Assembly (NCBI RefSeq): GCF_019195455.1
Contig: NZ_JAIMBW010000001.1
Span: forward strand, 310,001 to 374,000
Reading direction: 5' to 3'
Length of the DNA stretch: 64,000 bases
From: Gymnodinialimonas phycosphaerae
GTDB lineage: Bacteria > Pseudomonadota > Alphaproteobacteria > Rhodobacterales > Rhodobacteraceae
The notes beneath the pieces were generated by a model. The model had not been told where the DNA came from. It did not search any database and saw only the letters and a list, made by a program, of their open reading frames with translations. Below, in pieces: positions 43,296 through 54,862 of the stretch. The position numbers and the translations under genes are program-made. Every line of letters starts with the position of its first letter. Within the stretch, counting starts at the first letter, position 1.

Positions 43296-44125
43296 GCGGC
43301 TTCCCAAGCCAGCATGGCGCGTTTGACGGGCAGACCCCAATGGTAACCGCCAAGCCCGCCGGATTTGCGCAAGGCGCGGTGGCAAGGGATCAGCCAGCTG
43401 ATCGGATTGCGCCCCACGGCAGTGCCCACCGCGCGCACGGCGCGGGGTTTGCCGATGGCGCCCGCGATCTGGCTGTAGGTGGTGACGTGGCCCGTCGGGA
43501 TCGACAAGAGCGCCTCCCACACCTTGATTTGGAAGGGTGCCCCGATAAGCGACAGGTGCAGATCGCCGCCGCCGCCAAAGGCTGCATCGGCCAGGGCTTT
43601 GAGGGCGATGGTATCTTCCACGTAGGTGGCATTGGGCCAGCGCGACCGCAGGTCTGCCATGGCCGGCTCTGGCCCGGTCTCGGACGCAAAGCCGATGCCG
43701 CAGATGCCTTTTTCGGTGGCCATCAGCAGCGCCGGACCGAAGGGGCTATCGAACCAGCCCCAGCGGATCGTCAGACCCTTGCCGCCGGATGCGTAGGTGC
43801 CGGGGCTCATCGCCTCCCACCGCAGGAACAGATCGTGGAGCCGCCCGCCCGAGGTCAGCCCGGTCTCGCCCACCGTGTCGAGCACGGTGAAGCGCTCTGC
43901 CAACAAGCGCCGGGCGTGATCCAGCGTCAGGTATTGCTGATAGCGCTTGGGGCTGACGCCGACCCAGCCGCTGAACGTGCGCTGAAAATGCGCCGGGCTC
44001 ATGTCGAGGGCACGCGCCAGGTCATCGAGGCTCTGGTGCGGATTGGCATCGATCAGGTCCAACGCCCGACGCATCACGTTGAAGTGGTAACTTCCCGAGG
44101 GATCGTGGGGGGGGACATGTGACAT
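43271..44125 (-). CDS. AraC-type regulator/methylated-DNA-cysteine methyltransferase (Ada-like)
   Basis: 284 residues. An N-terminal AraC helix-turn-helix region (MSPAHFQRTFSGWVGVSPKRYQQYLT, about 45-100) and a C-terminal MGMT domain with active-site IPCHRALRKSGGLGGY (Cys). It repairs O6-alkylguanine by transfer to its Cys. The N-terminal Ada phosphotriester domain is missing, so methyl-induced DNA binding like that of E. coli Ada is not expected. AAGGAGAG precedes the ATG. Divergent from nth. Confidence 0.93.
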   Translation of the reverse strand: MSHVPPHDPSGSYHFNVMRRALDLIDANPHQSLDDLARALDMSPAHFQRTFSGWVGVSPKRYQQYLTLDHARRLLAERFTVLDTVGETGLTSGGRLHDLFLRWEAMSPGTYASGGKGLTIRWGWFDSPFGPALLMATEKGICGIGFASETGPEPAMADLRSRWPNATYVEDTIALKALADAAFGGGGDLHLSLIGAPFQIKVWEALLSIPTGHVTTYSQIAGAIGKPRAVRAVGTAVGRNPISWLIPCHRALRKSGGLGGYHWGLPVKRAMLAWEAATTEDGAA

Positions 44126-44137
44126 GGCTCGGCTCTC

Positions 44138-44152
44138 CTTAACGCCGTTAAC
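44138..44152. repeat. GTTAAC-N3-GTTAAC-type motif (ada-nth intergenic)
   Basis: CTTAACGCCGTTAAC, one mismatch, just upstream of the ada-like ribosome-binding site, in the divergent ada-nth region. Confidence 0.7.
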
Positions 44153-44243
44153 CTACCGCGGCCATGCTGGGGGGCGCGACCCGCTTCTTGCGGGATGTGC
44201 GGGGGGCTTGCCCGCCCGCGCCCGGCACGCCAAAAGGGACGCC

Positions 44244-44915
44244 ATGGCCAAACCACTTCCCTATCATACGATTCACGAGATATTCACCCGTTTCCGGGAG
44301 GCCGAGGCCGAGCCGAAGGGAGAGTTGCACCACGTCAACGCCTATACGCTGGTGGTCGCCGTGGCGCTGTCCGCGCAGGCGACGGATGCGGGCGTGAACA
44401 AGGCGACGCGGCGCTTGTTCGAGATTGCGGACACGCCGCAAAAGATGCTCGACCTTGGGCTGGACGCGGTGACCGAGCATGTCAAGACCATCGGCCTCTA
44501 CCGCAATAAAGCCAAGAATGTCATCAAGTTAAGCCAGATCCTTGTGGATGAGTACGGGGGCGAAGTGCCATCCTCGCGCGCGGCGCTGCAATCATTGCCG
44601 GGGGTGGGGCGCAAGACCGCCAACGTGGTTCTGAACATGTGGTGGGGGATGCCCGCGCAGGCCGTCGATACCCACATTTTCCGCGTCGGCAACCGGACTC
44701 GGATCGCGCCGGGCAAGGACGTGGACGCGGTGGAACGCGCGGTAGAGGATAACATTCCGGCCGAATTTCAGCTGCACGCCCATCACTGGTTGATCCTGCA
44801 TGGCCGCTACATCTGCGTGGCGCGCAAGCCCAAATGCGGCGCGTGCCTGATCCGGGATCTGTGTGTGTTCGAGGACAAGACGCCTGACCCGCTGCCCAAG
44901 AAAGGGAAGATATGA
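44244..44915 (+). CDS. nth: Endonuclease III
   Basis: 223 residues, base-excision glycosylase/AP lyase for oxidised pyrimidines. Helix-hairpin-helix LPGVGRKTANVVLN with catalytic Lys nearby, catalytic Asp in AVDTHIFRVGNR, and the [4Fe-4S] motif C-x6-C-x2-C-x5-C at the end. The ATG at 44244 gives MAKPLPYHTIHEIF; upstream codons are from the divergent promoter region. Next to another DNA-repair gene (ada-like), and coupled to the following gene by ATGA. Confidence 0.95.
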   Translation: MAKPLPYHTIHEIFTRFREAEAEPKGELHHVNAYTLVVAVALSAQATDAGVNKATRRLFEIADTPQKMLDLGLDAVTEHVKTIGLYRNKAKNVIKLSQILVDEYGGEVPSSRAALQSLPGVGRKTANVVLNMWWGMPAQAVDTHIFRVGNRTRIAPGKDVDAVERAVEDNIPAEFQLHAHHWLILHGRYICVARKPKCGACLIRDLCVFEDKTPDPLPKKGKI

Positions 44916-45301
44916 CACGGCAAAACGTTTCCTCCGGTTCCTACCTGGAGCCGCAGATCGGGTTTTCGCGGGCCGTGCGCATCGGCAATATGGTCGCTAT
45001 CGGCGGCACAGCCCCCATCGCGGCGGGGGGCGGCACTGACTGCGTCGGGGACGCCTACGGACAGACAAAACGCTGCCTGGAGATTGCGTTAACGGCATTA
45101 ACCCAGGCAGGTGGCACGGCAGAAGATGTCATCCGTACCCGTATAATCCTTAAGGATATCAATGACTTCAAAGAGGCAGCGCGTGCCCACGCCGAAGTCT
45201 TCACCGACATCCGCCCCGTCACGACGGTGATGGCGGTCACCGCTTTCGTCGATCCCGACTGGTTGGTCGAGATTGAAATCGATGCCATTGCAAAGGACTG
45301 A
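44912..45301 (+). CDS. RidA-family protein
   Basis: 129 residues, YjgF/RidA fold, which often destroys reactive enamine/imine intermediates. GTAPIAAGG, DVIRTRIILKDINDF and MAVTAFVDPDWLVEIEIDAIA fit the family; the usual catalytic Arg near residue 105 is not obvious, so it may be of a divergent subgroup. Coupled to nth (ATGA) and followed 3 bases later by a kinase gene. Contains a GTTAACGGCATTAAC motif (45088-45102). Confidence 0.87.
   Translation: MTRQNVSSGSYLEPQIGFSRAVRIGNMVAIGGTAPIAAGGGTDCVGDAYGQTKRCLEIALTALTQAGGTAEDVIRTRIILKDINDFKEAARAHAEVFTDIRPVTTVMAVTAFVDPDWLVEIEIDAIAKD
45088..45102. repeat. GTTAAC-N3-GTTAAC-type motif (in ridA)
   Basis: GTTAACGGCATTAAC, one mismatch. Encodes LTALT with two TTA codons. 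Confidence 0.7.
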
Positions 45302-45304
45302 ACC

Positions 45305-46300
45305 ATGACCCAAACCTACGACCTCGTGGGCATTGGCAACGCTGTTGTTGATGTGATTTCCCACGCCGATGACAGCTTTCTCGACAATATGGGCATCCAG
45401 AAGGGCATCATGCAGTTGGTAGAGCGCGAGCGCGCCGAGATCCTTTACGGCGCGATGACCGATCGGGTGCAGGCGCCCGGCGGGTCAGTCGGCAACTCGG
45501 TCTATGGCGCGGGCTCTCTGGGGTTGAAGACGGCGTTTCTGGGCAAGGTGAAGGACGACGCGCTGGGGATCTTCTATCAGAATGGCATGGCGGCGGACGG
45601 CATCGATTTCCCCAATCCGCCGGTCTCCGGCGCTGGGATCGCGCCCACGACACGGTCGATGATTTTCGTCTCCCCCGATGGCGAGCGATCGATGAACACC
45701 TACCTCGGCGCGGGCGCGGATTTCGATGAGGGCGACGTGGACGCCTCTGTCGCGGGCAACACACGTTACCTGTTTCTGGAGGGCTACCTCTATGACAAGG
45801 ACGAGGGCAAACGCGCTTTCACCGCAGCCGCGCAGGCCTGTCACGACGGTGGCGGCCAGGCCGGTGTCACGCTGTCGGATCCCTTCTGCGTCGACCGCCA
45901 CCGCGACGATTTCCGTCGCCTGATCGCGGAGGAAATGGACTTCACCCTTGGCAATGAAGAAGAGTGGCTGGCGCTGTTCCAGACCGAGGATCTCCAGGAC
46001 GCGCTCTCGCAGGCGGCAGCGGTGTGTGACCTGATCGTCTGCACGCGCTCGGGCAATCCGGTGATCCTGATCCAGGGCGACACGCGTGTCGAAGTGCCGG
46101 TCGTGCGGGTCACGCCAGTCGACGCCACGGGCGCGGGGGACCAGTTCGCTGCTGGGTTCCTTTATGGCGTGGCCACGGGGCAAACCCTTGAGACAGCGGG
46201 AAAAATGGGCGTTGCGGCAGCTGCCGAAGTCATCGCCCACGTGGGGCCCCGTCCCAAACGCCCCCTGCGTGACGTCTTCGCCGAGCAAGGCTTGATATAG
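45305..46300 (+). CDS. PfkB-family kinase, adenosine kinase-like
   Basis: 331 residues, ribokinase fold. N-terminal GIGNAVVDVISHADDSFL, GGSVGNSVYGAGSLGLKTAFLG and the C-terminal anion-hole motif DATGAGDQFAAGFLYG. Often annotated as adenosine kinase in alphaproteobacteria; sugar kinase activity is possible. Third gene of the nth-ridA-pfkB set, 10 bases before a membrane protein gene. Confidence 0.9.
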   Translation: MTQTYDLVGIGNAVVDVISHADDSFLDNMGIQKGIMQLVERERAEILYGAMTDRVQAPGGSVGNSVYGAGSLGLKTAFLGKVKDDALGIFYQNGMAADGIDFPNPPVSGAGIAPTTRSMIFVSPDGERSMNTYLGAGADFDEGDVDASVAGNTRYLFLEGYLYDKDEGKRAFTAAAQACHDGGGQAGVTLSDPFCVDRHRDDFRRLIAEEMDFTLGNEEEWLALFQTEDLQDALSQAAAVCDLIVCTRSGNPVILIQGDTRVEVPVVRVTPVDATGAGDQFAAGFLYGVATGQTLETAGKMGVAAAAEVIAHVGPRPKRPLRDVFAEQGLI

Positions 46301-46310
46301 GGTTGGCGCG

Positions 46311-47003
46311 ATGTCTGACCTTTTAGCACAGCTCAGTACGGGCACCGGTTCCATCGCGATCCTGTTGGTGGGCCTCGTGTTCAAGCTGACCGGCTTCGCG
46401 GTCCGCGACGAATTGATGTTGCGGATTCTCGTGGTCTGCGGGTTCATTTGTGATGCCGCCTACTACTTCTTCCGGGCTGATCCGATCCTGCCGTCGGTCA
46501 TGTCGAACATCGCGCTTTTGACGATCAACGTGATTCTGATCGCAGCTATCGCGTCCGAGCGGACGACTTGGCGCATGTCGGACGAAGACAGAAAGACCTT
46601 CGCCCATTTCCCGACCCTCACGCCGGGCCAGTTCCGGCGTCTCAAGAAGATGCTCTCTGCCGAGATCGCAGGGCGCGGCGCGGTCCTGACCCGCGAGGGG
46701 GCGGCGGTGGAGGACCTGATGCTGGTCTTCGCCCAGACGATCATGATCACCAAACGCGGTGAAAGCTTCCCGATCGCGGGCCCTGCCTTCGTGGGCGAGA
46801 TCGCGTTCCTCACGGGTAACCCGTCCAGCGCCGATGTGACCCTGCCTGAAGGGGGGACAGTGGTGCGGATCAACTCCGCAGCGCTACGCAAACGCATGTC
46901 GCGCTCGCCCGCGTTCAACAATGCGCTGGTGGCCCTATTCGGGGCCGAATTGGCCCGCAAGGTGGCGGATTCCGTGCCGATGGCGCGCGCCGCAGAGCGG
47001 TAG
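46311..47003 (+). CDS. Membrane protein with cyclic-nucleotide-binding-like domain (Popeye-like), 1
   Basis: 230 residues. About three membrane segments in the first 85 residues, then a cyclic-nucleotide-binding-like domain (about 100-215) with FVGEIAFLTGNPSSADVTL where canonical domains have FGE...PRxA. The Glu is present, but the phosphate-binding Arg is replaced by Ser. Layout is that of Popeye-type proteins. It converges on a similar gene, and its 3' end lies 18 bases from it, with a GTTAAC motif between. Confidence 0.8.
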   Translation: MSDLLAQLSTGTGSIAILLVGLVFKLTGFAVRDELMLRILVVCGFICDAAYYFFRADPILPSVMSNIALLTINVILIAAIASERTTWRMSDEDRKTFAHFPTLTPGQFRRLKKMLSAEIAGRGAVLTREGAAVEDLMLVFAQTIMITKRGESFPIAGPAFVGEIAFLTGNPSSADVTLPEGGTVVRINSAALRKRMSRSPAFNNALVALFGAELARKVADSVPMARAAER

Positions 47004-47004
47004 G

Positions 47005-47019
47005 GTTAACGGTATTAAC
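47005..47019. repeat. GTTAAC-N3-GTTAAC-type motif (between Popeye-like genes)
   Basis: GTTAACGGTATTAAC, one mismatch. It fills nearly the whole 18-base gap between the two converging genes. Confidence 0.75.
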
Positions 47020-47021
47020 CT

Positions 47022-47714
47022 CTAGCTGGCCGACAGGCCCGCCCGGTTGCGGTTGGCGGCCTCGATCTTGCGTTGCGCCTCGATCTGCAAGGCATTCGAC
47101 ACGGCCAGGGCAAACTCGTGGTCGATGTCCAACTCGCGGATCAACGCTGCGCGGGGCAGGGTGAAGATGCGCGCCTCGGACGTGATCTCCACATCTGCGG
47201 TCGCCTCCCCGCCGTGCATGATCGTCATCTCTCCGATCAGGGCTGTTGGCCCGATCTGCGCCACCACGACCCCATGGGCGCGCACCTCGGCGTTGCCGTG
47301 GCCCACATAGACCAATTCATGGACCGGCATGCCCTGGCGGGCCAGGACCGTGCCGGGGCTGACCGATTGCCACCGTCCCAGCCGCAGGAACTTGCGCGCC
47401 AGATGCGGTGAGAGCGTGCTGAAATGGGTGCTCAGGAACGCCCGTTCTTCATCCGAAAAGCGGACCTGACTACGCACCCAGGCCATCCGCCCCAGACCCA
47501 CCAGCGACAGCGTGATCCAGGAGATCTGGATCAGCAGCGACGACAGGTTGAACGCCTCCACCAAGCTGAGCAGAACCGCCATCGCGGCGAACATGTTCAT
47601 CACCGTATAGGTGACCGAACTGCCGCGCAGCAGTCCCAACTGCAAACCTCCATACGCCGAGAGGTAGAGGGCGACCCCGACAAGACCGGACGTTGACCAG
47701 ATCGAAAATTCCAT
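47022..47714 (-). CDS. Membrane protein with cyclic-nucleotide-binding-like domain (Popeye-like), 2
   Basis: 230 residues from the preferred ATG at 47714 (MEFSIWSTSGLVGVALYLSAYGG). Three membrane segments (about 5-80), then a cyclic-nucleotide-binding-like domain with ALIGEMTIMHGGEATADVEI, again with Glu but no Arg. Same length and layout as the converging neighbour, so the two are probably ancient paralogues. Divergent from the cyclase gene, sharing its 190-base upstream region. Longer in-frame starts (47723, 47795) exist. Confidence 0.8.
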   Translation of the reverse strand: MEFSIWSTSGLVGVALYLSAYGGLQLGLLRGSSVTYTVMNMFAAMAVLLSLVEAFNLSSLLIQISWITLSLVGLGRMAWVRSQVRFSDEERAFLSTHFSTLSPHLARKFLRLGRWQSVSPGTVLARQGMPVHELVYVGHGNAEVRAHGVVVAQIGPTALIGEMTIMHGGEATADVEITSEARIFTLPRAALIRELDIDHEFALAVSNALQIEAQRKIEAANRNRAGLSAS

Positions 47715-47904
47715 GGGCAGCATTTCCTTGAAACCGAAGCGACGCCCGGTAAGACGCCAAAGGGTGGCCTGCCACAGTGTCCCTGTCAAATCCATCTTCG
47801 ACACCAGAAGGGTTTGCGACGACACGGAAAATCCGCCACGATCCATCGCGAGCCGAGGGGGAAACCGTGCCAAGACACGCAGCGCAACAACCAAGGGCGG
47901 CCCG

Positions 47905-50112
47905 ATGTCCCGGGTGACTGTCGTTCTGGGTCTGGCGGTGACCGCGGCCATGGTAGGATTGACGGCCTTCCCGCCGCCGATCCTTGACCGTGCACGCGAT
48001 GCCGTTTTCGATGGCTACCAGCGCAGCGCGCCGCGTCCCTATGACCCCACCGCGCCAGTGCATATCATCGACATTGACGAGACCGCGCTGGAGGTCTATG
48101 GCCAGTGGCCCTGGCCGCGCAGCTACATGGCCGAGATGACCGACCGCCTGTTCGACCACGGCGCCGCTGCAATAGGCTTCGACGTGCTTTTCCCCGAACC
48201 GGATCGAACCTCGCCGGAACTGATCGTCGAGTCCTGGGCACGGTTCAGCGACGGCCCTGTGCCGGGGCTGGCCGATTTGGGGGCCGATGTGGACTTCACC
48301 CCCCATGACACCCGTTTTGCCCAAGCGATGGAGGGGCGATCGGTGGTCCTTTCGGTCGCCGGCGGCCTTGAGGGCACGATGCCCGAGGCCGTCGCGGGCT
48401 TCGCCGTTACCGGCGCCACCCCTACGACGCTGACAACCTACCCCGGCGCGATCGGCAATCTGCCAGAGTTGACGGCGGCGGCCAGCGGCATTGGCACGAT
48501 CAGCCTTGGGCGCAACGCTGATGGCATCACTCGGACCGTTCCCATGGTCTCGGACTTCGGGGGCGTGCTGATCCCGTCGCTGTCGGCCGAGCTGTTGCGC
48601 GTGGCGCAAGGGGCAGGGGGCCATGTGTTGCGGACCACGCAGGCCTCGGGCGAGGTCTCGGGCGGCACGGTCGCGGCGACGGCGATGCAAGTCGGCGGGT
48701 TGGCATTTCCGCTGGAGGCCGACGGGCGCTTTCGCCTCTATTTCGCGGGCTACCAGCCCCAGCGCGTGACGCCCGTGGGCGATCTGCTGGAGGCGGACGG
48801 CATTGACCCCGCCCTGCAACAGCGGCTGGCGGGGCGGATCATTCTTGTAGGATCCTCCGCGCAGGGGCTGTTCGACATCCGCACCACGCCGCTGGACGGG
48901 CAAATTGCGGGGGTCACGCTGCACGCCGAAATCATCGAGCAGATCGTGGCAGGCGCCTTTCTGTCGCGCCCGGACTGGATGCGCGGGCTGGAGATCCTGA
49001 TCGTGGCGCTTGCCGGCATCGCGTTGACGATCCTCAACCGGTTGGAGCGGCCCGTTTTGGGCCTAAGCGCGGCGCTGAGTGTCAGTGGCGGTTCGGTCCT
49101 CGGGGGTATTCTCGCCTTCACGCAGATGGGTGTGCTTTTCAACCCGCTGATGGCGGTGTTGACCTCGGTTCTGGTCTATATCCCCGGCACGACTCTGGGA
49201 TATCTCGCCAAGGAGCGCGCGCGGCGCTCCATCCGCGAGCGGTTCGCCCGCTTCCTGCCGCCCGATCTGATCGCCGAGATCGAAAAGAACCCCACCGCCG
49301 CCCTGACACCCGAGGGGGCCGAGCGTGATTTGACGGTGATGTTCGTGGACATGCGCGGCTTTTCGACCGTCACCGAAGGCATGTCGCCGGACCGGGTCGT
49401 GACGCTTGTGAATACGTTCCTGTCCGCCGTGGCCGAGACCCTTGTGGATCACGGCGCCACCATCGACAAATTCATGGGCGACGCAGTCATGGCCTTCTGG
49501 AATGCCCCCATCGAGCGGTCGGACCACGCGGCCGCCGCCCTCGGCGCGCTGCACGCGGTCAACGACGCGGCGGAGCAGGCGAATTTCATGCTGACCTCGC
49601 AAGGGCTGCCACGGGTGAACCTTGGGGTGGGGCTGAACACCGGGCCCGCATCCGTGGGGTTGATGGGCTCACGGGACCGTCTGTCATATACCTGTATCGG
49701 CGATAGCGTCACGCTGGCCGCAAGGCTGGAGGGGCTGACGCGGATCTATGGCACGCGCAACTGCGTGGGGCCGAATGCCGTGGCCGAATGCCCGCCGCAT
49801 TTGCAGGCCGTGACGCTGGATTTGATCGCTGTGAAGGGGTTTGCGCGGGCCGTCGAGGTGGCCACGGTGCTGCCGCGCATGACGCCGGGGCTGGAGGGGT
49901 TTGCCGACGCGCTCGCCAAAGCCCGCGCCACCTACATCGCCCGCGACTGGACGGGGGCGGAAGCAGCCTTCCTGAACGTGGCCAAAATCAAGGTGCCCAC
50001 GTGCAACACGGGCCTTCTGGCGCAGCTCTATCTGGATCGGATCGCGGCCCACAAAGAAGATCCCCCGCCCGAGGGTTGGGCGGGGGAATATGTCGCGCTG
50101 TCAAAGCGTTAG
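47905..50112 (+). CDS. CHASE2-domain adenylate/guanylate cyclase
   Basis: 735 residues. Membrane segment at the start, a periplasmic CHASE2 domain (about 30-335; HIIDIDETALEVYGQWPWPR), three membrane helices (about 360-430), then a class III cyclase domain (about 470-640). Metal-binding Asp residues are in VMFVDMRGFS and DKFMGDAVMAFW; the Lys of DKF is present. The later motif reads YTCIGDSVTLAARLEG: Arg is present but the usual Asn (VN) is Thr. The start MSRVTVVLGL is chosen; upstream codons run into the shared intergenic region. Stop codon overlaps the converging FecR gene. Confidence 0.92.
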   Translation: MSRVTVVLGLAVTAAMVGLTAFPPPILDRARDAVFDGYQRSAPRPYDPTAPVHIIDIDETALEVYGQWPWPRSYMAEMTDRLFDHGAAAIGFDVLFPEPDRTSPELIVESWARFSDGPVPGLADLGADVDFTPHDTRFAQAMEGRSVVLSVAGGLEGTMPEAVAGFAVTGATPTTLTTYPGAIGNLPELTAAASGIGTISLGRNADGITRTVPMVSDFGGVLIPSLSAELLRVAQGAGGHVLRTTQASGEVSGGTVAATAMQVGGLAFPLEADGRFRLYFAGYQPQRVTPVGDLLEADGIDPALQQRLAGRIILVGSSAQGLFDIRTTPLDGQIAGVTLHAEIIEQIVAGAFLSRPDWMRGLEILIVALAGIALTILNRLERPVLGLSAALSVSGGSVLGGILAFTQMGVLFNPLMAVLTSVLVYIPGTTLGYLAKERARRSIRERFARFLPPDLIAEIEKNPTAALTPEGAERDLTVMFVDMRGFSTVTEGMSPDRVVTLVNTFLSAVAETLVDHGATIDKFMGDAVMAFWNAPIERSDHAAAALGALHAVNDAAEQANFMLTSQGLPRVNLGVGLNTGPASVGLMGSRDRLSYTCIGDSVTLAARLEGLTRIYGTRNCVGPNAVAECPPHLQAVTLDLIAVKGFARAVEVATVLPRMTPGLEGFADALAKARATYIARDWTGAEAAFLNVAKIKVPTCNTGLLAQLYLDRIAAHKEDPPPEGWAGEYVALSKR

Positions 50113-50939
50113 GGCGTGATCGGCGGGGAGGGGCAAAACGGGCCCGGGTCCAATGGATTGCAGAGATCGAACTCTTCGAATTCTATCTCCGGCAGGCCAT
50201 CCAGCAGATCGTCGAAGCGAAGATCATCGTCGAAGATTTCGGGGTCGAACTCTTCACCCGTGGTCGAGACGGGGCCCCGATCCGATGGGTTGGGGTTGCC
50301 GACGCCCGACCCGAGGCCCGCTCCACCACCGCCACGGGGGGCGCCGTCGATCAGTTCAAGGATCTGCGCGAGGTATGCGGGGTTCACCCGGCCCTGGTAG
50401 CCGTCTTCCGTCAACACGCCGCCACGGCGGCTGGTGCAGGCGCGGCGACCGTTGCGCGTGGAAATGCAAAGACGCTCTCCGGCAAGGAATACGGCGATCG
50501 TTTCGCCGTTCAGGTGCACGATCAGCGCGCTCGATCCGCGGATGCCGATGGTGGCCGTCGGCGTCGTCACCGTCGCCTCTTGCTCACGCGACAGGGTGCC
50601 ACCGATGAAGCGCAGCGCACCTTCGGTCATTTGCAGGCCCATCTGGCCCGTGCCGTTCGCGTTGAACACGAATTGGTCCAGCACGATGGTGGTGTTGGGC
50701 GCCAGCGAGAGGGTCGTCTGGTCGACGAACAGGATTTGCCCCCGGCCCGAAGCCGACGACGCAATCGTCTCGTCCTGCACGACGCCTGTGCCCAGGTTCA
50801 ACGGGCGCGTTCCTGCGCCCGGCGGTGTACCGCGCAGGGTCGGTTCGCTGGAAGCGACCGTGCCGATGTTCTGCGCCGCCAAGGGCGCTGCGAGGGCGAG
50901 GGCCGCCGTTGCGACAAGTGCTAATGTCTTGAAGGGCAT
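50109..50939 (-). CDS. Secreted FecR-domain protein
   Basis: 276 residues. Signal peptide (MPFKTLALVATAALALAAPLAAQ), then a FecR-type beta domain (about 50-150): GRGQILFVDQTTLSLAPNTTIVLDQF, GALRFIGGT and TPTATIGIRGSSALI. A Cys pair follows (CISTRNGRRAC), then an acidic Gly/Pro-rich C-terminus with two further Cys. No transmembrane segment or sigma-factor interaction region, so it is not a classical FecR regulator but a periplasmic or surface protein. A GGGAG site precedes the ATG at 50939. Three bases after the beta-barrel gene, so cotranscribed. Confidence 0.85.
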   Translation of the reverse strand: MPFKTLALVATAALALAAPLAAQNIGTVASSEPTLRGTPPGAGTRPLNLGTGVVQDETIASSASGRGQILFVDQTTLSLAPNTTIVLDQFVFNANGTGQMGLQMTEGALRFIGGTLSREQEATVTTPTATIGIRGSSALIVHLNGETIAVFLAGERLCISTRNGRRACTSRRGGVLTEDGYQGRVNPAYLAQILELIDGAPRGGGGAGLGSGVGNPNPSDRGPVSTTGEEFDPEIFDDDLRFDDLLDGLPEIEFEEFDLCNPLDPGPFCPSPPITP

Positions 50940-50941
50940 GC

Positions 50942-52162
50942 TTAAAACTCCCAACCGACCTGGAATGTGTAAATCATTTCTTCCCGTGTGCCGCCGGGCG
51001 TCGTGTCCTCATGGACCTGCGCTGCGGCCGTCTCAATGTAGATGTCTTCAAATACGAAAGCGCGCAGCCACAGGCCGTAGCTGTACTCGTCAAAATCCGT
51101 GGTTATGCCACCGACGTCCTGTTCCGTCTGGCCCATCTCGGCGAATGCGCCGGCGACCCAGCGGTTAGGCAGGTTGTCCCATTCCACATCGAAGGCGTGC
51201 TGCGCGGCCAACCGGACCGAGGCTTCGGTGAATTCGATCGGTGTTGCCGCATCCACCTCGGTGTGGGCGCTCCATGTGCCCGACAGACGCAGGCGCGTGT
51301 CGCGAGAGGGGCGGTAGGTCACGCCTAGGTCAAACTCGTAAAAATCGAAATCCGGATCGCCCGCGTCCATCGCGATCTCGCGGCCCACACCCAGATCGGC
51401 GTAGACCGTAAAGCGCTCGTTGATCGGGTTGGCGTAGGCCAGACCTGCGCCCCAGGAGGTGTAATCACCGGACAGAGTGTCGTCGTTCTGGAACCACCCC
51501 AATTCGGCGTAGGCCTGTAGACGGGGGCCGTAGGCATCGGATGCAAGGCGCCACTGCGGTCCGGTGCGCAGGCGCGCATTGGTGCGTTCGTTGATCGAGG
51601 CATCCCCGGGCTGGTAGGTGCTGAAGGCGAATTCCGTGACCCATTGCGTCACATCGGCGTCGCCCATGTCGATGCGCCAATCCACGGAACCGTTCACGAA
51701 GGCCCCTTGCTCGTCACTGGTGTCGGCAAAGGCATAGCCCACCTGCAACCGCCCGCTATAGTCCGAGCGGTCATCGCGCTCTTGCGCTTCTTCGCGGTAA
51801 CGCGCGACCTCGGTCATTTGCTCGGGCGTCAGCGTCCCCGAGGCCTGGGCGGCGGCGAAATGGTATTCGGCCACAGCGTAGGAGCCGAGCGCGAAGTAGG
51901 CCACGGCCAGCTCTACGCGGGCGGTGGTATTGTTGGGCTCCAGATCAACCAGGCGCTCCAGGGTTGCGGCGGCGGCCTCGAAATCGCGGGCCGCAACCGA
52001 AAGGCGAGCATAGTCGCGCATCAACTGGCGGTTGGCGGGATCGACCAGCAGTTGCTCGAACACGTCTTGGCGCTGCGCGTCAGCGGCCGCAGTTTGGGCC
52101 GCGACAGGCGCGGAAATCAAGGTCAGAGCGGCGACGGACGCCAGAAGAGGGGCGCGAAACAT
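50942..52162 (-). CDS. TPR and outer-membrane beta-barrel protein
   Basis: 406 residues. Signal peptide (MFRAPLLASVAALTLISAPVAAQ), a TPR-like helical region (about 30-130; NTTARVELAVAYFALGSYAVAEYHF) and a C-terminal beta-barrel of about 260 residues. The barrel has alternating aromatic strands and a terminal Phe (TFQVGWEF), as in outer-membrane proteins. Layout is like Slam-type surface lipoprotein assembly modifiers, which move proteins across the outer membrane. Upstream of the FecR gene and probably its partner. Confidence 0.82.
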   Translation of the reverse strand: MFRAPLLASVAALTLISAPVAAQTAAADAQRQDVFEQLLVDPANRQLMRDYARLSVAARDFEAAAATLERLVDLEPNNTTARVELAVAYFALGSYAVAEYHFAAAQASGTLTPEQMTEVARYREEAQERDDRSDYSGRLQVGYAFADTSDEQGAFVNGSVDWRIDMGDADVTQWVTEFAFSTYQPGDASINERTNARLRTGPQWRLASDAYGPRLQAYAELGWFQNDDTLSGDYTSWGAGLAYANPINERFTVYADLGVGREIAMDAGDPDFDFYEFDLGVTYRPSRDTRLRLSGTWSAHTEVDAATPIEFTEASVRLAAQHAFDVEWDNLPNRWVAGAFAEMGQTEQDVGGITTDFDEYSYGLWLRAFVFEDIYIETAAAQVHEDTTPGGTREEMIYTFQVGWEF

Positions 52163-52299: not shown

Positions 52300-53118
52300 T
52301 CAGCCGCCCAGCTTGGCGTGCACCTCTTCCAGATCAATTTCGCCGATGGGCATCTTGTTGCTGGGATTGTCGAAATCGTACTTAAAGAGCTCGAAATCGC
52401 GGTGGTAGATTTCCTTGATCAGATGCATTGACAGATCGTCGAAGTAGTCCTCGACCGGGTGCAGGCGCTTGGGGCCGTGTCCTTCGGACTCGTTGAAACG
52501 GGGCACGTCCTTGAGCTTGATCGGATGGGCGTTTTCCGTTGCATCCAGAACGCTTTGCATGCCGTCGTTGAAGCTTTCGGTCCAGAAGATCTTGTCGTAG
52601 CGCCCGCCGTTGACGATGAAGGTCGAGACATGGCCCGCCATCGCGGACCAGTGGATGTCCGGGTCCATCGGCTTGCGCCAGCGGATGGTGTCACGGGTAA
52701 ACAGCAGGAACCGGCGGAAGCTGGCGATCTGGTCAAACTCGCCCTTGCCGTCCTCACCGCCCACTTCGATGCCGTATTTCTGGATCAGAAGTGGCACCAG
52801 GTTGCCGCGATAGCGCTTCCCGTTGCGCTGGATGCCGCAGATCTTGTCGAAAAACGACGACAGGATGCGGGTGTAGGGGTTGCGCACGCAGGTGAAGGCG
52901 AAACTCTTGTTGGTGGTGACGTTGGCCTCGATCAGCGGCTGGCTGGCATCGAAGGCCCATTTGTGCATGCCGCCCTGGGCGTCATGAATGTCGCCGTCGA
53001 AGTACGCTCCATTGTCGGTGTAGTACATGATCTGGCCGATCGTCGAGCAGGCGCATTTGGGCACCACGCGGTACACCATGCTTTCACTCGACGTCATCCA
53101 AGTGCCTGGAAAACCCAT
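52300..53118 (-). CDS. Sulfotransferase family 2 protein
   Basis: 272 residues, carbohydrate-type sulfotransferase. The 5'-phosphosulfate loop is VYRVVPKCACSTIGQ near the start; the 3'-phosphate motif is TCVRNPYTRILSSFFDKI (about 75-92). It should transfer sulfate from PAPS to a glycan. A GAGG site precedes the ATG at 53118; a start at 53097 is also possible. Divergent from a glycosyltransferase gene with 166 A/T-rich bases between. Confidence 0.88.
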   Translation of the reverse strand: MGFPGTWMTSSESMVYRVVPKCACSTIGQIMYYTDNGAYFDGDIHDAQGGMHKWAFDASQPLIEANVTTNKSFAFTCVRNPYTRILSSFFDKICGIQRNGKRYRGNLVPLLIQKYGIEVGGEDGKGEFDQIASFRRFLLFTRDTIRWRKPMDPDIHWSAMAGHVSTFIVNGGRYDKIFWTESFNDGMQSVLDATENAHPIKLKDVPRFNESEGHGPKRLHPVEDYFDDLSMHLIKEIYHRDFELFKYDFDNPSNKMPIGEIDLEEVHAKLGG

Positions 53119-53284
53119 ATGCTCGTTACCTCACGTGCTGCCCGGCGTGTCGTTCGACGGATCGCTCACCAAATCTAAAGATATAAATTGCAAACATTTG
53201 ATGTCGCATCAATGTCTTTCGGGTATTAATGAGTTAACAACAAGGCGCAACAATGCGCAAAGATCCGAGGCAATCGTTTCCAGA

Positions 53285-54862
53285 ATGGCAAAAATCGCCT
53301 TTATTCTCCTGTGTCACAAGGATGCGCCAAGCATCATCCGGCAGGCCGAGCGTCTGACGGCGACAGGTGATTATGTGTCGATTCACTTTGACGCAAGTGC
53401 CAAGGCGGCGGAGTTTGCGGCATTGCAGAGCGCCTTGAAGGACAACGCGGGCGTCACTTTTGCAAAAAAGCGCATAAAATGCGGCTGGGGGGAATGGTCG
53501 CTTTGCCAAGCCACGTTGAACGCGATCGAAGCCGCGGTCGAAGCGTTCCCCAAGGCCACCCACTTCTACATGCTCTCGGGCGATTGTGCCTCGGTTAAGT
53601 CGGCGGCCTATGCGCACAAGTTCCTCGATGACCGGGACATGGATTATGTGGAGTCGTTCGATTTCTTCCACTCGGACTGGATCAAGACCGGCTTCAAGGG
53701 TGAGCGGCTGTTTTACCGCCACTTCTTCAACGAACGAAACCACAAGACGCTGTTTTATGCCTCCTTCAACCTGCAACGCAAACTGCGGCTGGAACGCAGG
53801 ATACCCGACGACATCCAGGTGATGATCGGTAGCCAATGGTGGTGCCTGCGCCGCAACACGATCGAGGCCATCCTCGCCTTCTGCCGTGAGCGGCCGGATG
53901 TGATCCGCTTCTTCCAGACCACATGGATCCCCGATGAGACGTTCTTCCAGACACTTGTGCGCCACCTCGTCCCCGCGCGCGAGATCGAGAGTCGCACGCT
54001 GACCTTCAAGATGTTCAGCGATTACGGCATGCCGGTGACCTTCTACAACGACCAGTACGATCTGCTGATCAGCCAGGACTACCTGTTCGCCCGGAAGATT
54101 TCGGCTGAGGCCACGCTGCTCAAAGAGCGTCTCGGTGCGCTGTGGAGTTCTTCGCGCAAGGACTTCGCGACATCCCAGGAGGGGCCCAAGCTGCACGCTT
54201 TCCTGACCGGGCGCGGACGGGTCGGCAAACGTTTCGGCACCCGGTTTTGGGAGCGCGAAAGCACATTGGGCGCGGACCGCGATCTTTATATGCTGGTGTG
54301 CAAGAAATGGCACGTCGCCAAGCGCCTGTTGAAGGCTTCGTCCGAAAAGCTGGACATCCGGGGCGTCGAGTATCTGTTCGATGAGGCGGGCTGCCGCGTG
54401 CCGCATCTGGGCGGAATCGAACGGACGATGGAAAAGCGCAACCGCCACCGTCGGGCGCTGATGCGGATGCTGTTCGATTACTACGGGACAGAGCAATTGA
54501 TGATCTGCCTCGACCCTGCCAATCTTGACCTGATGCGCGACTTCATGTCGGATCGTGCCAATGCGAGGATTCTGGAAGTGCAGTGCAATTTCGACGATCA
54601 ATATCTAGTTGGCCATGCCCATCGCGTGGGACTTGCGACAGATGACACGCCGGGCGAGGTCTTGCAGCGCATGCTGCCGACACTGCGCCACGAATTCCTC
54701 GATGAACAGATGGAGATCCGCGAGGCGGAGTTCAAACAGCATTGGCGCCTGAAGGAAGGCCGCTCGCCCGAGGAAAACGGCACGGTGCTGGCAGAGTTTT
54801 TCGGGATCGATCAGGACCGCGGTCGCGAGTTGGCCGAGACCCAGCACCTGTTTGCGGATTGA
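53285..54862 (+). CDS. GT14-type beta-1,6-N-acetylglucosaminyltransferase with DUF5928-like C-terminus
   Basis: 525 residues. The N-terminal half (about 1-280) fits core-2/I-branching glycosyltransferases: KIAFILLCHKDAPSIIRQAERL, KCGWGEWSLCQATLNAI, HFYMLSGDCASVKS, GSQWWCLRRNTIEAIL and PDETFFQTL. The C-terminal half (about 290-525) is a conserved unknown domain, probably DUF5928, with LMICLDPANLDLMRDF. No membrane segment. Possibly builds a surface glycan that the divergent sulfotransferase modifies. The ATG at 53285 is the first with protein-like sequence. Confidence 0.85.
   Translation: MAKIAFILLCHKDAPSIIRQAERLTATGDYVSIHFDASAKAAEFAALQSALKDNAGVTFAKKRIKCGWGEWSLCQATLNAIEAAVEAFPKATHFYMLSGDCASVKSAAYAHKFLDDRDMDYVESFDFFHSDWIKTGFKGERLFYRHFFNERNHKTLFYASFNLQRKLRLERRIPDDIQVMIGSQWWCLRRNTIEAILAFCRERPDVIRFFQTTWIPDETFFQTLVRHLVPAREIESRTLTFKMFSDYGMPVTFYNDQYDLLISQDYLFARKISAEATLLKERLGALWSSSRKDFATSQEGPKLHAFLTGRGRVGKRFGTRFWERESTLGADRDLYMLVCKKWHVAKRLLKASSEKLDIRGVEYLFDEAGCRVPHLGGIERTMEKRNRHRRALMRMLFDYYGTEQLMICLDPANLDLMRDFMSDRANARILEVQCNFDDQYLVGHAHRVGLATDDTPGEVLQRMLPTLRHEFLDEQMEIREAEFKQHWRLKEGRSPEENGTVLAEFFGIDQDRGRELAETQHLFAD

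Follow-up and report, generated by a model that had tools for sequence, protein, structure and literature searches.

CHASE2 domains are widespread, yet one paper states that the factors recognized by them are not known (PMC5192318). Several described systems place a CHASE2 sensor beside FecR-domain proteins. In Sinorhizobium meliloti, the response to plant signals requires the outer-membrane protein NsrA together with the cyclases CyaK or CyaD1/D2 (PMC7529298; PMC13001267), and in NsrA the FecR and TPR (tetratricopeptide repeat) parts precede a barrel at residues 600-1200, of which only the loops are said to be exposed (PMC7529298). In Campylobacterota, a CHASE2 adenylate cyclase, a phosphodiesterase, a FecR-domain outer-membrane protein and a TPR protein are clustered (PMC9239204), and the BiofilmReg operon of the Burkholderiales holds a LysM-FecR protein and a CHASE2 histidine kinase (PMC5192318). 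Here we describe a locus in a 64,000-nucleotide stretch of Gymnodinialimonas phycosphaerae DNA (hereafter the window, C1:310001-374000 of the 4.32-Mb genome) with a CHASE2 class III nucleotide cyclase, a secreted FecR-domain protein, an outer-membrane TPR-barrel protein apparently related to the type 11 secretion system (T11SS), and two Popeye-like membrane proteins, CNB-A and CNB-B (CNB, cyclic-nucleotide-binding). We think it probable that this locus encodes a trans-envelope receptor for the cyclase, made up of a surface barrel, a FecR relay and the CHASE2 domain.

The author of an earlier note on this DNA knew of no described system that combined these parts. As a claim of novelty this is wrong, as both the S. 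meliloti and the Campylobacterota sets combine such parts; the CHASE2/FecR/TPR/barrel combination is already known and what looks new is the kinship of the sensor half with type 11 secretion. The NsrA/CyaK system resembles the window in having FecR, TPR and outer-membrane barrel with a CHASE2 cyclase, all of which the window has, but there the first three lie on one chain, whereas in the window FecR and TPR-barrel are two genes, the barrel seemingly belonging to a different family; moreover, the NsrA/CyaK effector Clr is a Crp-type regulator and the signal that reaches it is cAMP. On pSymB of S. meliloti R28, the gene before cyaK overlaps it by one base and encodes 1190 aa, with FecR at 66-160, TPRs at about 417-587 and a C-terminus of barrel length with a weak OMP_b-brl_3 match under the cut-off. 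The record gives this gene no name, and we take it to be nsrA from its place, its size and the residues of the NsrA barrel. The Campylobacterota cluster, likened here by its published description, likewise brings a CHASE2 cyclase, FecR and TPR together, but it has a phosphodiesterase, of which there is none among the nine window genes scanned. BiofilmReg shares the pairing of a FecR protein with a CHASE2 sensor and differs in its kinase output, TPR and cyclase being absent from the part of its text searched.

All five genes described by the earlier note are present in the window, with ends near those it gave. It had called the cyclase interlocked with the FecR and barrel genes, and rightly so: the cyclase and FecR genes are convergent with overlapping stop codons, and FecR starts 2 bases past the end of the barrel gene. 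Its claim that the cyclase shares an upstream region with one of the CNB-like membrane proteins also holds, as CNB-B and the cyclase are transcribed away from each other, their likely starts lying about 181 bases apart. The features are as follows.

46311-47003, plus strand: CNB-A (230 aa), a Popeye-like membrane protein with about three hydrophobic stretches and a degenerate cyclic-nucleotide-binding domain, starting 10 bases downstream of a pfkB gene
47022 to about 47723, minus strand: CNB-B (233 aa), with a CBU_0592-type N-terminal membrane part (two to three hydrophobic stretches) and a cyclic-nucleotide-binding domain without the phosphate-binding Arg; the open reading frame (ORF) can be extended to 47951
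47724-47904, no strand: divergent upstream region common to CNB-B and the cyclase, its limits set by starts inferred from sequence and relatives
47905-50112, plus strand: CHASE2 class III nucleotide cyclase (735 aa)
47944-49020, plus strand: CHASE2 domain, predicted periplasmic sensor (E 1.1e-51, 176.3 bits, cut-off 26.3)
49327-49734, plus strand: cyclase catalytic domain (Guanylate_cyc, E 1.6e-11), with the metal Asp pair, Lys and Arg kept and Asn replaced by Thr
50109-50939, minus strand: secreted FecR-domain protein (276 aa), a FecR fold and then a low-confidence acidic tail, without a T11SS-cargo-like barrel; the start is ATG, with a TTG alternative at 50954
50490-50768, minus strand: FecR domain (E 8.8e-11)
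50942-52162, minus strand: TPR and 14-strand outer-membrane barrel protein, a putative T11SS/Slam (DUF560) relative with Phe as C-terminal residue
51773-52093, minus strand: predicted periplasmic helical TPR part, residues 24-130
50948-51766, minus strand: predicted 14-strand beta-barrel, residues 133-405

The CHASE2 cyclase, the FecR protein and the TPR-barrel are a conserved unit. The earlier note had called for a survey of their co-occurrence, which we carried out in a family sample of 198 genomes, one per genus, and the genes are indeed neighbours in relatives. Genome searches scored only a few candidates for protein queries (at most 5 for the cyclase), so that counts are lower bounds. CHASE2 was found in 44 genomes and FecR in 50 (both in 40, CHASE2 only in 4, FecR only in 10, neither in 144), and a FecR domain lay within 8 kb of CHASE2 at 43 of 58 places. 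This clustering is far above chance; p values from the sample ignore kinship and so overstate. The 43 linked places show four arrangements, namely same strand with FecR upstream (28), divergent (10), convergent (3; the window, G080 and G034) and same strand with FecR downstream (2). Because the linkage survives such changes of gene order, it points to a functional tie between CHASE2 and FecR. TPR-barrel matches were scarcer in this sample: at E 1e-5, 7 of the 198 genomes gave one, and in two of the seven it covered the TPR part only. A TPR-barrel profile scan of named genomes gave 50 loci, or 51 rows with the window, some of which overlap with the family sample (G080 is L144, G125 is L150 and G083 is L161); protein relatives came from Gymnodinialimonas, Jannaschia, Roseicyclus and Hasllibacter, among others. 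FecR lies immediately downstream of the TPR-barrel in 46 of the 51 rows, with an allowed gap of -400 to +200 bases. As for the remaining five, L146 missed by 1-2 bases, the gap is 317 in L147, the FecR of L174 lies elsewhere, and none was found in L167 and L180. A CHASE2 cyclase is present within the fetched stretch in 33 of the 51 rows, and in 21 of the 25 with a short FecR (<450 aa).

The barrel protein is modelled (AlphaFold, 75 sequences, mean pLDDT 90.2) as a helical TPR part at about 25-130 followed by a 14-strand barrel at 133-405. T11SS proteins are described as 14-stranded, and NilB as a barrel whose periplasmic N-terminus, some 140 residues long, carries TPRs (PMC8406197). The window protein is thus predicted to have the architecture by which T11SS proteins (Slam, NilB, HrpB; DUF560) are recognized, a TPR N-terminus with a 14-strand barrel; the likeness extends to the barrel profile and to the FecR partners of several barrel relatives, which end in a cargo-like domain, while the differences are that the window FecR has no such domain and that a Pfam scan of the window barrel protein gave no PF04575 (DUF560) match. 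Compared as profiles, the whole protein and 14 family proteins found with PF04575 scored 99.4% over 356 columns. With the barrel only, hhalign against the T11SS profile gave 95.9% (E 5.5e-9, a pairwise value, over 244 columns), as against 18.6% and 0.1% for the reversed and shuffled profiles used as controls. The barrels of more distant TPR-barrel relatives scored 99.6% (reversed control 9.6%), and among 14 such relatives, picked by hand for spread, five reach E 0.01 or better with PF04575, L157 exceeding the cut-off. A fold search with the barrel also returns the TPR-barrel channels BcsC and PelB. On these comparisons with T11SS and NsrA-type profiles, the window barrel is read as likely kin by descent of the T11SS/Slam barrels that nevertheless falls outside PF04575.

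The FecR partners differ in a way that bears on how the barrel is used. The window FecR has a confident FecR beta domain at residues 31-189, with two invariant Cys, and a low-confidence acidic tail that varies among relatives; a TbpB-like eight-strand T11SS-cargo domain was not found in it, either by Pfam scan or in the structure model. Barrel-adjacent FecR proteins in Roseibium/Labrenzia, Shinella, Paracoccus and others are much longer (about 620-1090 aa). In 12 of these, hand-picked for spread, the last 160 residues match TbpB_B_D in eight and FHBP_C in seven at E 0.1 or better, and a profile of the C-termini searched against a structure database returns NHBA (GNA2132), factor H binding protein, TbpB and LbpB (best E 1.9e-7). 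The cargo-domain matches in whole-protein scans of long FecR are all below Pfam cut-offs, only L175 is shown above a cut-off when cut pieces are scanned (FHBP_C), and L157, L161 and L164, three of the five long FecR proteins for which the full chain was scanned in one set, give FecR alone at E 0.01. As the window FecR is short and without the domain, the window lineage has either lost a cargo-like domain or never acquired one.

The structures matched by the cyclase sequence are class III cyclase domains. At the positions that we take to be catalytic, the window cyclase keeps the two Asp residues that bind metal, the Lys for the substrate and the Arg of the transition state, and has Thr in place of the transition-state Asn. 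We aligned 78 cyclase ORFs, a few of which are not CHASE2 or are fragments, and found Thr at this position in 20. All but one of these (19/20) come from loci with a short FecR next to a TPR-barrel, and Asn is retained in two loci of that type, L136 and L033 (the same place as L150). The metal Asp pair and the Lys are present in all 20 Thr sequences and the Arg in 19, the split ORF L137 having Gly there. Retention of these other catalytic residues speaks for an enzyme that is active, if perhaps altered.

The earlier note had cast both Popeye-like proteins as responders to the cyclic nucleotide. Popeye (POPDC) proteins have a divergent phosphate-binding cassette and yet bind cAMP (PMC6952887). 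CNB-A and CNB-B resemble them in having hydrophobic N-terminal stretches and then a CNB-like domain with a divergent cassette, but are below the cut-off of the Popeye model PF04831 (CNB-A, 15.3 bits against 28.1) or unlisted by it (CNB-B), and the DSPE and FQVT motifs were absent from both when the translations were read; L044, a relative of CNB-A, does pass this model with 29.9 bits. PF00027 is passed by CNB-B (42 bits, cut-off 27.5) and not by CNB-A (20.9 bits). The cassette Arg is replaced by Ser in CNB-A and by Ala in CNB-B, and it occurs in none of the 19 + 19 CNB-A and CNB-B family sequences with a readable motif, one of which has Lys (3 + 2 more were unreadable, and the two sets may share members). 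As a control, Crp-, SulP-, patatin-, glutaminase- and SpoIIE-linked CNB domains in the same neighbourhoods retain the Arg; four small neighbourhood CNB ORFs (L049, L050, L054 and L074) likewise do without it. Because Popeye proteins bind cAMP with a divergent cassette, we regard nucleotide binding by CNB-A and CNB-B as doubtful rather than excluded.

Genome distribution separates the two proteins. Full-length CNB-B, defined by a match reaching about residue 190 of the query, was found in 17 genomes, 16 of which have CHASE2, mostly at a distance from it (Fisher 4e-11, or 2e-6 among cyclase-bearing genomes, kinship ignored), and short relatives of its membrane part alone occurred in ten genomes, none with CHASE2. 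L145 and L146 have two same-strand CNB-B genes before the cyclase, and the closer of the two shares 4 bases with the cyclase gene. For CNB-A, which comes after pfkB, there is no clear preference for CHASE2. The proposed responder role thus gains from co-occurrence for CNB-B but not for CNB-A, and is weakened for both by the missing Arg. More broadly, of 38 cyclase places, 14 have a CNB-domain ORF no more than 5 kb away, where about 1.4 would be expected from the rate in the window genome (13 PF00027 places, 11 above the cut-off); at 11 places the distance is at most 1 kb. These nearby ORFs include four Crp-type regulators near the cyclase or overlapping it (two overlap the cyclase ORF), SulP transporters, a glutaminase and a SpoIIE phosphatase, each with CNB domains, and patatin-CNB genes in Paracoccus and L145.

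Taken as a whole, a cyclic-nucleotide sensor of the envelope or surface, as the earlier note supposed, is the best reading of the conserved CHASE2/FecR/TPR-barrel unit. In the mechanism that we favour, the TPR-barrel would meet the outside of the cell and its periplasmic TPR part would hold or present the secreted FecR, which would contact the periplasmic CHASE2 domain at the inner membrane and set cyclase activity; the cyclic nucleotide would then act on proteins that bind it, among them perhaps CNB-B, the membrane protein encoded divergently from the cyclase. Computation gives the parts, the fact that they are conserved together, the relation of the barrel to T11SS and the absence of a cargo-like domain from the window FecR, and from this starting point we infer localization, contacts, direction of signalling, ligand, nucleotide made and effector. 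In the window lineage FecR probably remains periplasmic as a relay, as is suggested by the one-chain protein beside S. meliloti cyaK, whose FecR part would face the periplasm beneath a surface barrel; a relay is also likelier here than export because the window FecR is without the cargo-like domain. Export is possible in the window and likelier for the long FecR relatives, so that the earlier suggestion of a barrel that displays or exports FecR fits those relatives better than the locus in which it was made. As a bolder and rather unlikely reading, we can picture a T11SS turned receptor, in which a FecR cargo would span the envelope with its TbpB-like barrel outside and its FecR domain in the periplasm, switching the CHASE2 cyclase. 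The window would then be a stripped form, with a FecR that has no displayed barrel, the outer-membrane protein itself as surface sensor, and coupling to CNB-B as a Popeye-like effector.

Several observations weigh against the receptor that we propose. FecR is missing within 8 kb at 15 of the 58 CHASE2 places (two at contig starts), and a cyclase is missing from the fetched stretch in 18 of the 51 TPR-barrel rows, some of them cut by contig ends. In the window, FecR and barrel are convergent with the cyclase, so that no common transcript is implied. A small FecR gene of S. meliloti, smc02177, is dispensable for signal perception (PMC5498481), and an NsrA-type barrel profile, built from only two sequences, gave 0.3% against the window barrel by hhalign. 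Finally, the window cyclase and 19 of the 77 other aligned cyclase ORFs carry Thr in place of the transition-state Asn, which leaves activity uncertain. This last point is the basis of an alternative that we consider distinctly unlikely, in which the cyclase has become a weak or inactive receptor that signals through protein contacts with CNB-B and CNB-A instead of a diffusible nucleotide. The concentration of Thr in short-FecR/TPR-barrel loci and the consistent want of the phosphate-binding Arg in CNB-A and CNB-B relatives would agree with it, but decay would not keep the metal Asp and Lys in all 20 Thr sequences and the Arg in 19, and Popeye proteins show that a divergent cassette can still bind cAMP.

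Alternatively, secretion may come first, with the TPR-barrel serving as a functional T11SS channel by which FecR is exported or displayed, and with a cyclase that only senses export or the state of the envelope. The kinship of the barrel to T11SS, the PF04575 matches of distant relatives, the TbpB/fHbp/NHBA-like ends of several long FecR partners and the TPR-barrel/FecR pairs of Roseibium/Labrenzia/Breoghania, for which the fetched stretch shows no cyclase, all speak for such a channel. We nonetheless judge it rather unlikely: the window FecR has a low-confidence, variable tail and no cargo-like domain, the window barrel has no PF04575 match, L157, L161 and L164 have long FecR proteins that show FecR only at E 0.01, and in NsrA it is only the barrel loops that are said to be exposed (PMC7529298). 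It would be very improbable that vertical synteny simply holds the genes together with no single pathway between them. While close relatives likewise retain pfkB, nth, sulfotransferase and DUF5928 genes on the flanks, cyclase, FecR and TPR-barrel stay together despite different flanks, orders and strands in Paracoccus, Shinella, Neomegalonema and Rubrimonas, and the FecR-CHASE2 linkage extends across genera. This largely refutes mere neighbourhood for these three genes, though not for CNB-A.

The locus brings together candidate partners of a CHASE2 domain: a secreted FecR protein as relay, and an outer-membrane protein with kin among protein exporters. If our reading is true, type 11 secretion would be linked to second-messenger signalling and FecR proteins would be suggested as a new class of T11SS cargo, both of which could be tested in environmental bacteria. 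The words 'FecR' and 'cyclase' are absent from the main text of the two T11SS surveys searched, and among the openly licensed papers found for FecR with T11SS terms, the two that contain FecR and such a term deal, by their titles, with a Lysobacter siderophore and an Acinetobacter genome; to these searches, a T11SS-FecR-CHASE2 link is unreported.

Other loci show variations on these parts. L168, L170, L171, L173 and L175 (Roseibium, Breoghania, Labrenzia) combine a TPR-barrel with a long FecR, and the stretch fetched for each shows no CHASE2 cyclase. They may be plain T11SS with FecR cargo, two of them (L168 and L175) having a TbpB/fHbp-like C-terminus by Pfam. Very large FecR proteins may be encoded in G148, G139 and G092, where FecR domains lie in open frames of 1789-3345 aa divergent from CHASE2 cyclases. 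A CHASE2 cyclase relative at L035 7877-10060 (G011) has several altered catalytic positions and no FecR nearby, and is possibly a dead cyclase. The TPR/FecR/CHASE2-cyclase set adjoins NHLP-type bacteriocin export genes in L076 (Shinella) and L074 (Ensifer), and the TPR gene of L074 is short, at about 105-115 aa. Divergent from the cyclase in L151 (14115-17375) and L154 (14443-17382) is a large ORF, which in L151 matches an ABC-transporter membrane domain and has a terminal cyclic-nucleotide-binding domain.

The window genome has two class III cyclases by PF00211, the module cyclase and a MASE7 membrane protein at C1:105078-105608 (L071). Upstream of the module, at 44124-46300 of the window, an endonuclease III-like gene (by reading), a RidA-type gene and a PfkB-family gene, all on the same strand, lead into CNB-A, and in Roseicyclus-type loci pfkB and the endonuclease gene remain next to CNB-A. 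On the other flank, at 52300-54862, lie a sulfotransferase gene and a Core-2/I-branching/DUF5928 gene, which are retained in close relatives.

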